This document shows positions 6,096 to 10,911 of a stretch of 19,022 nt of DNA, one piece after another. The notes under the pieces were generated by a model. The model was given only the letters and a program-made list of their open reading frames with translations. It did not search any database and was not told where the DNA came from. The position numbers and the translations under genes were made by a program. The DNA is taken from assembly GCA_015522385.1 (NCBI GenBank), contig WAMJ01000163.1, positions 1 to 19,022 of the forward strand, written 5' to 3'. Each line of letters starts with the position of its first letter. Within the stretch, counting starts at the first letter, position 1. Origin of the DNA: Candidatus Heimdallarchaeota archaeon. Its GTDB lineage: Archaea > Asgardarchaeota > Heimdallarchaeia > Heimdallarchaeales > Kariarchaeaceae.

Positions 6096-7838
6096 ATGGA
6101 CGATATTGAGAGGAAAATCCTCATTGAGGCGTTGATAAATGCCAAAGAGTATGACGGGAAAACCAACCCTAAAGCAGTCCTAGGTAAACTTATGGGGAAG
6201 TATCCTGAGTTCAGAAAAGAGGCGAAGACGATAGCGCCAAAAGTAAATAGAATCATCGCTGAAAAATTTCCAATGGATATCGAGGAAGTGGATAACCTAC
6301 TCAATGAGTTGGACCCCGATGCCCTAAGTAAGAGACAAGAGACTGTCGCAGAGCAGAAGAGGGTAGTCGAAAAGACAAAGGGGAAGTTAGTTGACCTTCC
6401 AAACGCGATCGAGGGGAAACTCGTTGTCAGGCTGGCACCAGACCCATCGAAATACCCCCATATCGGCCAACTCCTGAACTACACGATTAACTCAATGTAC
6501 GCAGAAAAGTACAAAGGAAAAATTGTATTGAGATTTGACGATACAAATCCCGCCAAGGTTAAACCTGAATTCTACAGAGCAATTAAGGAGGGAATGAAGT
6601 GGGGGGGAATCACATGGGATGTCGAGACAAGGGCTTCAGAGCATATCGAAGAATTCTATGAGGTTGCAAGAACATTCATCAACAATGGTGACTTCTATAT
6701 CTGCACATGTGAACACGATGTCATGAGGAAGAACAGGGAGGATATGGTCGAGTGTGCCTGCAGGGGTAGCTCTACTGAGAAGGTACTCGAACAATTTGAG
6801 CAGATGCTCCAAGGTAAGTTGAAGAATGCTATAATCCGTCTTGTAGGGGATATGAAATCTGATAATCCAGTGATGAGAGACCCTGTGATGTTCCGGAATG
6901 TGGACAAGCAGCACCCTATGCTCGACAAGTTCTACGCGGTCTGGCCAACGTATGATTTCGAGTCTCCCTACCTTGATTGGAAGTATAAGGTCACCCATAT
7001 CTTGAGATCTGGTGAATTTGGACCCATGAGGCAGGAGCAACAGAGCTACATTATCAAGAAACTTGGTGGTAAGGTACCGGTCTTCTTCTCGTACGGTAGG
7101 TACAACATCAAAGGTTGCCCCCTCAAGGGAAGAGTGCTAAGGGACCTGGTTGAAAGAAAGGTAGTTACTGGATGGGATGACATCAGGCTCTTCACAGTTG
7201 AGGGGTGGAAGAAGAGAGGGATACAGCCCGAAGTCCTTAAGGTTCTGATCAGGGAAAACGGAACCACACCAAAGAACTCAACGATTGACTGGTCGGTGGT
7301 TGAGAGGTACAACAAGAAGATCCTTGAACCGAAATCCATGAAGATCTTCGGTGTCCGAACACCTGTAAAGGTATCTCTTGACGACACAATTGATCAGATA
7401 GTAGAGCTACCGTTCTCCCCAAACTCAAAGCGAATGAGATCGCAGCATGTGTCAGACGTCGTTTACGTAGACAAGAACGATGCTGATCGCCTAAAGAAGG
7501 GAGATCTAATTAGGTTGAAGGACCTCATCAATATTGAGATCCTCAGTAAAGAAGAAGATGGAATAAAGGCCAAAGTGAGTGAGGGAAATCCCAGTAGGAG
7601 TATCAAGAAGATCCAATGGGTCGCAGAATATGTCGAGACTGATCTTCTGGTGCCCTCGCTGCTTGAGCCCAAGAAGAATGTGATAGATGAAGAATCGCTT
7701 GGGTCAGTTAGGACGTATCTGGAGAAGTCTATCCTCCGGATAGAGGGAGAGAATTACTATCAGATCGAGCGGGTTGGCTACGCCAAACTCACCGTCGCTA
7801 AGAATGCTGTAAAAGGACACATAATCCACTTGATCTAG
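6096..7838 (+). CDS. gltX: Glutamyl-tRNA synthetase, archaeal type, with degenerate catalytic motifs
   Basis: 580 residues, the usual archaeal GluRS length. Residues 1-100 match the archaeal N-terminal helical domain. The Rossmann catalytic core starts at VVRLAPDPS (110-118) and includes LRFDDTNP (145-152). A CTC...CAC zinc-like motif lies at C203, C205, C220 and C222. Conserved blocks continue with WP-x-Y-x-F, VTHILRSGE (299-307), YGR (333-335) and GWDD-x-RL (359-365). Residues 400-580 form the beta-barrel anticodon-binding half. Two active-site signatures are abnormal: HIGH is HIGQ (122-125), and the KMSKS loop, where archaeal GluRS has about STSK, reads KGRV (344-347), so the second catalytic Lys is missing. 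The enzyme would normally charge tRNA-Glu (and tRNA-Gln in archaea). This copy may be a slow enzyme, a paralog with another job, or a lineage-specific variant. Confidence 0.9.
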   Translation: MDDIERKILIEALINAKEYDGKTNPKAVLGKLMGKYPEFRKEAKTIAPKVNRIIAEKFPMDIEEVDNLLNELDPDALSKRQETVAEQKRVVEKTKGKLVDLPNAIEGKLVVRLAPDPSKYPHIGQLLNYTINSMYAEKYKGKIVLRFDDTNPAKVKPEFYRAIKEGMKWGGITWDVETRASEHIEEFYEVARTFINNGDFYICTCEHDVMRKNREDMVECACRGSSTEKVLEQFEQMLQGKLKNAIIRLVGDMKSDNPVMRDPVMFRNVDKQHPMLDKFYAVWPTYDFESPYLDWKYKVTHILRSGEFGPMRQEQQSYIIKKLGGKVPVFFSYGRYNIKGCPLKGRVLRDLVERKVVTGWDDIRLFTVEGWKKRGIQPEVLKVLIRENGTTPKNSTIDWSVVERYNKKILEPKSMKIFGVRTPVKVSLDDTIDQIVELPFSPNSKRMRSQHVSDVVYVDKNDADRLKKGDLIRLKDLINIEILSKEEDGIKAKVSEGNPSRSIKKIQWVAEYVETDLLVPSLLEPKKNVIDEESLGSVRTYLEKSILRIEGENYYQIERVGYAKLTVAKNAVKGHIIHLI

Positions 7839-8676: not shown

Positions 8677-10911
8677 ATGAAGGTAAAAAACGCGGATGAG
8701 ATCCGAGATATGATTATGAAGTTCCCTTCCGAACAGAGGAGGATCTTCTCGATCGCTGCGCATATTGACCACGGTAAGTCAACTACTGCGGACTATCTGC
8801 TCGCAAAAGCAGGTCTGATGTCAGAGGAGACTGCAGGCCAGAACAGAATGACAGATTCTGATGATGAAGAGCAGGAGAGAGGAATCACAATCTTTACGAC
8901 AGTTGTTATTCTCAGCTATGATTATACCGATGAGAACGGAGATACGAAGACATACCTCTTCCAGATCAACGACACTCCAGGCCACCTTTCATTTACAGGA
9001 GAGGTATCAAGAGCACTTAGAGGTTCTGATGGAGCTATCATCCTCGTTGATGCTCTCGAGGGTATGATGACCCAGACAGAGACAAACATTCAACTCGCAG
9101 TTGGTGAGGAACTCTGCAAACCAGTCCTCTTCATCAACAAGGTAGATAGGTTGATCGCGGAGCTCAAACTCGATCCTAAGGACGTATTCTCCAAGCTTGA
9201 CATTATCGCCAACCAAGTCAACAACAAGATTAAGTCAATTGTTCCTAAGGAATTCAAGAAGGAATGGAAAGTCTCATTTGCAGATAACAGTGTTGCAGTC
9301 GGGTCTGCTAAGGATGGATGGGCATTTACTGTTGAGATCCTGAAAATGAAGGGTCTGACACCCGCCAAGGTATTTGAGAAGTATCAGGAGAATGATAAGG
9401 ATTGGTTGAGAGATAATCTCCCGCTCCACGACTCGCTCCTTCGGATGGTCGTGCAGCACCTACCTCACCCCGTAGTGTCTCAGAGATATAAGATCCCTAA
9501 CATCTGGAAGGGTGATGTCGAGACAGAGCTTGGTCAGTCACTGAGGAAGGCAGACCCCAATGGTCCCCTCCTTGGTATGATCACCAAAATATTTATCGAT
9601 CCCAGGAGCAAGAGACCTACACTAATAGGTAGGGTTTTCTCTGGAACCATTAAAGATGGAGATGACATCTGGCTAATAAACAGGAAAGAGAAAGTGAAAT
9701 TCAGAAGGCTGGGCGTGATGGAAATTACAGATATCCTAACAGTTCCTGAGATCCCCGCCGGTAACCTCTTCGCTGCACAGGGCTTCATCTGCCCTGCAGG
9801 AGAGTCCTTTACACATTACTCTACCAAAGACGTGGAAGGCTTTGACAAGATCTCGTATGCTGCAGAACCAGTCGTTTCACGATCTATCTTCCCCAAAAAG
9901 GAAAAGGACGTGGCAAAGCTCGGTGACGTCGTCAAGACATGGATCATGGCTGACCCCACTGCTAGCTACTATATGGATCCAGAGACCAAGAAATACACTC
10001 TTGAAGGGATCGATCCACTGCAGATTGACATCCTCATCACAAGGATCAATGAGCAGGTTCCGATTGATGTCACTGACCCAATCATCGTCCACCGTGAGAC
10101 CATCACCAAGGACTCAGAGACCTTCACTACTAAGTCACCCAACGGTCACAACAGACTGCAGGTTGTCATGCACCCCATGCCAGATTCACTTTTCAAGGCA
10201 CTCAAGGAGGTCGACGACATCGATGGTATGGACAGAAAGGCTAGATCTAAGTGGCTTGCAGAGCACAGTGACGGAATGTGGGATGAGAAGTTCTTCAGAG
10301 GTTTCTGGGCATCATCAGACTCCAATCTTCTAGTTGAGAACACCAAAGGTGTCCAGAGACTAGACAGGATCAGGGAATTCGTTATAAACCAGTGGAGGAC
10401 ATTCTGTAAGAAGGCAACACTCGCAGGTGAACCCCTGATGAAGACTGTTCTTGAGATCACTGACGCTACAGTACACTCTGATCCTGCACACACAGGTATC
10501 ACAGAGATCATCGCTATGACCTCTGCCGCCACCAACCTGACCTACTTAACTGCAGGACCCCAGCTCCTCGAACCCCTCCTGACTATTGATGTCAAGACCC
10601 CTGAGGATTACCTAGGCGCAATAACTGGTCTTCTGACTCAACACCGTGGTATGATCCAGGAGATTGGAGAAGCAGGTGGACAGTCTACCCTCAAGGCAAT
10701 TATCCCCACAACTGAAACCACAGGTCTCGCTGATGAGATCAGAGGGGCAACAGCTGGTAGGGGTTTCTTCGGATACCAGTTCGCTAAGTTCGAGCCAGTT
10801 CCCCCACATCTTCTCGACGATAAGATAGCCTTCATTAGGAAGAGGAATGGTCTCAAGGAAGAAGTTCCCTCCGCTTCCACATGGGAGAGGTTCATCTACA
10901 AGCAGAGCTAA
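8677..10911 (+). CDS. Translation elongation factor EF-2 (likely divergent paralog)
   Basis: 744 residues, full length for archaeal/eukaryotic EF-2, the GTPase that moves tRNAs and mRNA through the ribosome. G motifs are intact: AAHIDHGKST (27-36), switch I RGITI (68-72), DTPGH (99-103) and NKVD (154-157), with GSAKDGWAF as the G5 region. Domain IV begins near residue 480, and SPNGHNRL replaces SPNKHNR. The diphthamide loop is unusual: His605 is in the right place (DPAHTGITEI), but the normal HRG-x-x-Q context is HTG-x-x-E. The usual GPL before the loop (GPLAxEP) is ATL (ATLAGEP), and the C-terminal FDHW-type motif is FAKFEP. EF-2 paralogs without a standard diphthamide signature are known in Asgard archaea and this may be one; it could also be the only EF-2 in a lineage without diphthamide. 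It has its own TATA box. Confidence 0.93.
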   Translation: MKVKNADEIRDMIMKFPSEQRRIFSIAAHIDHGKSTTADYLLAKAGLMSEETAGQNRMTDSDDEEQERGITIFTTVVILSYDYTDENGDTKTYLFQINDTPGHLSFTGEVSRALRGSDGAIILVDALEGMMTQTETNIQLAVGEELCKPVLFINKVDRLIAELKLDPKDVFSKLDIIANQVNNKIKSIVPKEFKKEWKVSFADNSVAVGSAKDGWAFTVEILKMKGLTPAKVFEKYQENDKDWLRDNLPLHDSLLRMVVQHLPHPVVSQRYKIPNIWKGDVETELGQSLRKADPNGPLLGMITKIFIDPRSKRPTLIGRVFSGTIKDGDDIWLINRKEKVKFRRLGVMEITDILTVPEIPAGNLFAAQGFICPAGESFTHYSTKDVEGFDKISYAAEPVVSRSIFPKKEKDVAKLGDVVKTWIMADPTASYYMDPETKKYTLEGIDPLQIDILITRINEQVPIDVTDPIIVHRETITKDSETFTTKSPNGHNRLQVVMHPMPDSLFKALKEVDDIDGMDRKARSKWLAEHSDGMWDEKFFRGFWASSDSNLLVENTKGVQRLDRIREFVINQWRTFCKKATLAGEPLMKTVLEITDATVHSDPAHTGITEIIAMTSAATNLTYLTAGPQLLEPLLTIDVKTPEDYLGAITGLLTQHRGMIQEIGEAGGQSTLKAIIPTTETTGLADEIRGATAGRGFFGYQFAKFEPVPPHLLDDKIAFIRKRNGLKEEVPSASTWERFIYKQS

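Follow-up and report, generated by a model that had tools for sequence, protein, structure and literature searches.

Can a class I synthetase that has lost the lysine of its KMSKS motif still work as an enzyme? This question is raised by a GluRS gene in the window, as we call the whole stretch of 19,022 nucleotides of Candidatus Heimdallarchaeota DNA that was analyzed. In standard teaching, class I synthetases are recognized by the KMSKS lysine and ArgRS is the one exception; the second lysine of the motif stabilizes the transition state of adenylate formation. Lysine at this second position, a canonical class I trait, is missing from the window protein, which has Gly345 there. An earlier, sequence-only reading of this DNA had proposed either a tRNA-binding or tRNA-sensing paralog or an enzyme that does charge tRNA but whose active site is altered. 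From comparison with homologous sequences, the gene probably encodes a working GluRS whose catalytic lysine has been relocated from the KMSKS loop to the HIGH loop, as Lys119, convergently with ArgRS.

The domain content of the protein is that of a GluRS. It combines PF00749 with PF03950, the domain pair of archaeal/eukaryotic-type GluRS, and at E 0.001 Pfam gives PF00749, PF03950 and PF20974 only, with the ArgRS domain PF00750 absent. The description of the protein as full length in the sequence-only reading agrees with the intact ORF and its catalytic and anticodon-binding Pfam domains, PF20974 being below its cut-off (Table 1), and comparison of structures finds the overall GluRS fold intact in the AlphaFold2 model. 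The best NCBIfam matches are glutamate--tRNA ligase models, and the protein is nearer to GluRS (442.9 and 375.5 bits) than to GlnRS (222.8 bits with glnS). It lies below the curated GluRS cut-offs (TIGR00463, 375.5 vs 401.75; PRK04156, 442.9 vs 516), although these equivalog cut-offs are annotation thresholds and not biological features. Two Ras-family small GTPases (PF00071; 5161-5673 and 7979-8521) flank the gene on the same strand, and an EF-2-like gene (8677-10911) and a TBP gene (1535-2146) also lie in the window.

Table 1. Features of the GluRS gene, with nucleotide positions in the window
Feature	Position	Strand	Basis or remark
GluRS gene, Lys119/Gly345 form	6096..7838	+	intact ORF, 580 aa plus stop
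N-terminal helical domain, residues 1-97	6096..6386	+	aligned with N-terminal part of 3aii; helical in AlphaFold2 model
Class I catalytic domain, residues 108-411	6417..7328	+	PF00749, E 5e-58
Lys119 codon, HIGH-loop lysine at H-3 (proposed KMSKS-lysine substitute)	6450..6452	+	alignments
HIGH motif, reads HIGQ, residues 122-125	6459..6470	+	alignment
Cys203, Cys205, Cys220 cluster, putative metal site	6702..6755	+	invariant in 75 aligned sequences; metal binding inferred
KMSKS-equivalent loop CPLKGRV, residues 341-347	7116..7136	+	aligned with MPVSKRK
Gly345 codon, column of second KMSKS lysine	7128..7130	+	alignments
Anticodon-binding beta-barrel, first part, residues 418-491	7347..7568	+	PF03950
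Anticodon-binding domain, second part, residues 505-564	7608..7787	+	PF20974, 22.7 bits vs cut-off 23.9 (just under)

The letters HIGQ at residues 122-125 and K-G-R-V at residues 344-347, pointed out in the sequence-only reading, are both seen in the translation of the ORF. That reading compared the loop with S-T-S-K and took Val347 to replace the lysine. S-T-S-K is the loop of Methanobacteriota GluRS, which have Lys at column 347 in 81 of 120 sequences, and in their register the comparison holds; against the SKR-type relatives (MPVSKRKIKPL), however, S-K-R aligns to K344-G345-R346 (window loop GCPLKGRVLRDL opposite GMPVSKRKIKPL of the relatives), and therefore the column of the second KMSKS lysine is that of Gly345. 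Overlooked in that reading was Lys119 (PDPS-K-YPHIGQ), which precedes the first His of HIGH by three residues (H-3), a place where canonical enzymes have Gly. We refer to proteins with Lys at H-3 and Gly at the loop column as the swapped form.

HIGQ itself, which had been regarded as a telling change, is ruled out as the key one because H and Q alternate within the swapped form and bacterial GluRS are variable at this site (HVGG, HIGG, HIGN, HVGT, HLGG). The fourth letter is not diagnostic: 103 swapped-form proteins divide into 59 with Q and 44 with H; in a 94-row archaeal sample it is H in 32 and Q in 6 rows within the form, and H in 42, N in 13 and Q in 1 outside it. Many Asgard GluRS (L149, L150, L153, L154 and many of L177-L224) have HIGN and a DDTIGS-like sequence for HIGH and RFDDTNP, and these retain the KMSKS lysine.

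The residues at the two columns go together, and pairs are written here as (residue at H-3, residue at the KMSKS-lysine column). Among 235 proteins from two homolog searches, G,K occurs in 127, K,G in 103, A,K in 3 and G,R in 2, proportions that are biased because both searches started from swapped-form proteins. Lys119 and Gly345 are found in every one of the nearest 72 of the 120 matches listed from the first search (38-94% identity), and Gly and Lys in every one of the following 48, a typical contrast being PDPSKYPHIGQ with KGR versus PEPNGYLHIGH with SKR. Asgard GluRS outside the relatives' class have G,K in 60 of 60 cases, hand-picked among the best-scoring matches listed from a search of 227 genomes, 202 of them with a match. 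For a DPANN class, represented by 57 genomes selected around a Woesearchaeota-titled record, 55 genes gave G,K in 24, K,G in 23, A,K in 2, G,T in 3 and G,A, G,C and N,G in 1 each.

Lys119 is thus accompanied by Gly345 in 126 of 126 rows (103/103 and 23/23, the window protein included), 126 of the 127 rows with Gly in the loop have Lys at H-3, and the two lysines occur together in none of 470 rows (235 + 60 + 120 + 55, including 120 Methanobacteriota GluRS; one gene may be counted twice). Rows without Lys at H-3 have Gly there, rarely Ala or Asn. The sole row with Gly345 and without Lys119, L334 from the DPANN genome G262, carries Asn at H-3 in the sequence SNYMTAGH, where HIGH is altered too.

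In a 94-row alignment, columns 119 and 345 are mutual best covariation partners, with a normalized mutual information of 0.606 as against 0.22 for the next partner of either, these being raw scores that ignore kinship among the rows. The pair ranks 5 among 137,940 column pairs, behind two pairs of near-invariant columns that have one or two deviating rows in common (ranks 1 and 2), Cys205-Cys220 (rank 3) and Ala16-Cys220 (rank 4). Calculated from the 52 DPANN rows only, it is again the top pair at 0.604, with the next partners at 0.331 and 0.315; the other 42 rows likewise put it first, at 0.668 as against 0.29 and 0.381.

Trees were built after removal of both motif regions. Those without the DPANN class are compatible with a single origin of the swapped form: a 111-row tree has 3 label changes with 2 forced under LG+G4 and 2 with 1 forced under a mixture model, and a 46-row tree has 1, the swapped form being one side of a branch with support 52. 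When the DPANN class is included (94 rows; 52 of its 55 ORFs, those of 480 aa or less being left out), Lys119 switches at least 6 times, with 4 switches forced by well-supported branches, and the loop letter switches 9 times. An independent-pairs test finds the loop following the H-3 change in a mean of 2.8 of 4 pairs and never in the opposite direction; with only these 4 pairs, too few to reach significance, the sign test gives no significant evidence of correlated change (median p 0.25). The swapped form may have arisen once, with transfer or losses, or several times. The nearly identical GluRS of L300 (genome G265, DPANN class) and P0125, about 0.01 apart in the tree, group with that of Heimdallarchaeum aukensis, which reflects either a recent transfer or a binning mix-up.

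ArgRS provides the precedent for a lysine at this place. Four solved ArgRS, which we take to be the enzymes of yeast (1bs2), P. horikoshii (2zue), T. thermophilus (1iq0) and E. coli (4oby), have Lys at H-3, the HIGH regions being SPNIAKPFHAGH in 1bs2, SVNPTKPLHMGH in 2zue (loop FSGRKG), SVNPNKELHVGH in 1iq0 (loop MSGRKG) and APNVAKEMHVGH in 4oby (loop FKTRAG). The Lys-x-x-His spacing of KMSKS-lacking ArgRS is identical to that in PSKYPHIGQ of the window GluRS, the second KMSKS lysine is missing in both, and the S-G-R loop of 2zue and 1iq0 resembles the T-S-G-R, T-Q-G-R and T-K-G-R loops present among swapped-form GluRS. Sekine et al. are said to have proposed in 2001, from modelling and mutagenesis, that a lysine upstream of HIGH is the functional counterpart of the KMSKS lysine in ArgRS. 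ArgRS, an enzyme of a different family, has its own tRNA and its own anticodon domain, and the likeness is likely convergent. A degenerate KMSKS motif is ascribed to ArgRS as a known family trait in a passage that cites Sekine et al. (PMC8318970).

The known types of GluRS and GlnRS compared here differ from the window protein at both columns. The archaeal-type GluRS, termed GlxRS-A with 3aii as the example (PMC11580382), has Gly before HIGH instead of Lys119, and Lys (most of those sampled) or Thr (Methanobacteriota) instead of Gly345 at the loop column. The eukaryotic GluRS 7wrs has Gly at H-3 and an L-S-K-R loop, and in sampled GlnRS the residue before HIGH is again Gly and the loop, in those sequences that include it, reads S-K-R or G-K-R, both unlike the window protein. 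In five Heimdallarchaeia GlnRS loci (L081, L105, L106, L107, L111), G-K-R replaces S-K-R and the catalytic Lys is retained.

It is not a strict requirement that an enzyme carry one of the two lysines, since exceptions are found among the Methanobacteriota GluRS and in a small number of DPANN rows. In each of the 120 Methanobacteriota GluRS sampled (P0236-P0355), Thr occupies the KMSKS-lysine column and H-3 is Gly, the loop being of the LSTSx type; the lysine that 81 of them have at column 347 stands two residues after the usual column, and the other 39, the 3aii type among them, have no loop lysine. We take 3aii to be the M. thermautotrophicus-type GluRS and an active enzyme. Six of the 55 DPANN rows break the swap, 5 with Gly at H-3 and neither lysine and 1 with Gly345 and Asn. 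Among Heimdallarchaeia ArgRS (L225-L254; 30 loci giving 29 ORFs, 3 of them without the loop), both lysines are missing in 15 of the 26 with both sites visible, and the other 11 have Lys at H-3 only; one of those lacking both reads NPTGPLHVGN with KMAGREFEY. Because 39 of the 120 Methanobacteriota GluRS and 15 of the 26 Heimdallarchaeia ArgRS have neither lysine, we infer, and do not observe, that Lys119 is the replacement.

These enzymes with a lysine at neither place, including the 3aii type, indicate that neither lysine is indispensable in these families and that Lys119 could serve otherwise. The loop lysine would then have been lost as in some Methanobacteriota GluRS, and Lys119 would be employed in another role, for example in contacting the acceptor end of the tRNA or in holding the loop. 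We consider this unlikely: the coupling of Lys119 to Gly345 is far tighter than to any other column, the Methanobacteriota enzymes have a different loop and retain Gly at H-3, and Lys occupies this position in the four solved ArgRS as well.

A non-charging paralog that binds or senses tRNA and has lost catalysis would be in keeping with the missing KMSKS lysine, the HIGQ and the scores below the NCBIfam cut-offs, but a survey of the relatives' genomes speaks against it. The class search covered 58 genomes of assemblies for which completeness is not given, 49 of them with a PF00749 match, and the swapped form was read in 31 (G001-G008, G010-G015, G017-G025, G027, G028, G030-G035), relatives of the window's own genome, which lies outside the sample. 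No second GluRS was found in any of these 31. A second strong PF00749 gene is present in 16, in all of which the best match is to GlnRS models (15 over the curated glnS cut-off, 1 a fragment at a contig edge), and the remaining 15 have no second PF00749 match above cut-off. Six weak PF00749 matches from the class search had no match to GluRS and were excluded, and a separate genome scan, dominated by GlnRS matches, contributed two Heimdallarchaeota loci of use. A GluRS with the KMSKS lysine is present in other genomes of the class, and none of those examined carries both kinds.

Of the 57 genomes of the DPANN class, 55 carry a single strong GluRS/GlnRS-family gene (at least 194 bits), further matches reaching at most 27.4 bits and spanning at most 110 positions; in 23 of these 55 genomes, that only strong gene is of the swapped form. 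The swapped-form proteins P0122, the GluRS of Candidatus Heimdallarchaeum aukensis, and P0164, a named Woesearchaeota protein, score above both GluRS cut-offs (TIGR00463 and PRK04156), P0051 and L083 above that of TIGR00463 only, and L147 above neither. Many residues are invariant across 75 aligned sequences, and the GluRS of the relatives is under purifying selection, with dN/dS of 0.056-0.263 in the 25 most similar pairs within the 78-97% identity band from 30 genomes (the window protein excluded; ORFs taken stop to stop and hence with slight upstream sequence).

With no second GluRS in the relatives' genomes and with their extra PF00749 genes being GlnRS, both a paralog and decay are rejected on the basis of this survey, and for the window gene itself a non-charging paralog is highly improbable. 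The sequence-only reading was thus right that this is not simple decay, and of its two proposals the tRNA-binding or tRNA-sensing paralog finds no support in the relatives' genomes, whereas the charging enzyme with an altered active site fits, the alteration being a coupled swap and not a bare loss. Relatives with the same loop have it in their sole GluRS in the genomes examined, a finding which that reading had itself named as one that would tell against it. A slip of the loop lysine by one position, such that Lys344 of K-G-R acts as the KMSKS lysine, is rejected as very unlikely since residue 344 is variable within the swapped form: of 38 members sampled, 18 have Lys, as the window protein does, 11 Gln and 9 Ser.

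The Lys119/Gly345 GluRS is probably a housekeeping gene, and the rearrangement of its active site is real and unusual. For the relocated lysine, the following mechanism is proposed, modelled on the HIGH-loop lysine of KMSKS-lacking ArgRS. The class I lysine of the mobile KMSKS loop is gone, Gly345 standing in its column, and Lys119, in the loop just before HIGH, would reach the phosphates of ATP and take over their neutralization during formation of the glutamyl-adenylate. The enzyme would presumably charge tRNA-Glu, and perhaps also tRNA-Gln where GlnRS is missing. GatE is above cut-off in 12 of the 13 swapped-form genomes without GlnRS that were searched (13 of 15 covered) and likewise in 14 of the 16 with GlnRS; because it is common in both groups, it permits, but does not prove, an indirect synthesis of Gln-tRNA.

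A requirement of tRNA for activation is stated for GluRS, GlnRS, ArgRS and class I LysRS (PMC7916415; PMC7373986), and we conjecture that such tRNA-dependent activation may allow the enzyme to tolerate a lysine placed outside the mobile loop. GlnRS, likewise tRNA-dependent, retains the KMSKS lysine in the samples examined. It is possible, though we put it forward only tentatively, that a shared need for tRNA in activation led ArgRS and archaeal GluRS, each independently, to shift the lysine out of the KMSKS loop into the HIGH loop, such that bound tRNA, and not closure of the loop, gates adenylate formation and a mobile lysine becomes dispensable. For IleRS2, too, a signature motif of class I is described as naturally changed while the enzyme works, the change being tied to mupirocin resistance (PMC10485003); there, unlike in the GluRS form, HIGH is altered and not KMSKS.

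A literature search of titles and abstract openings, with subscription papers mostly outside its scope, found no description of the Lys119/Gly345 form of GluRS. As far as this search reached, the form appears to be a previously undescribed variant of archaeal GluRS, the lysine move itself being known from ArgRS. The swapped form is apparently the sole GluRS in part of Heimdallarchaeia and in many genomes of the DPANN class, and loss of the motif calls for caution before such enzymes are declared dead. Two residues, 119 and 345, suffice to probe the swap directly by mutation. If true, a second family with a moved lysine would make the placement of this lysine a repeatable evolutionary switch.
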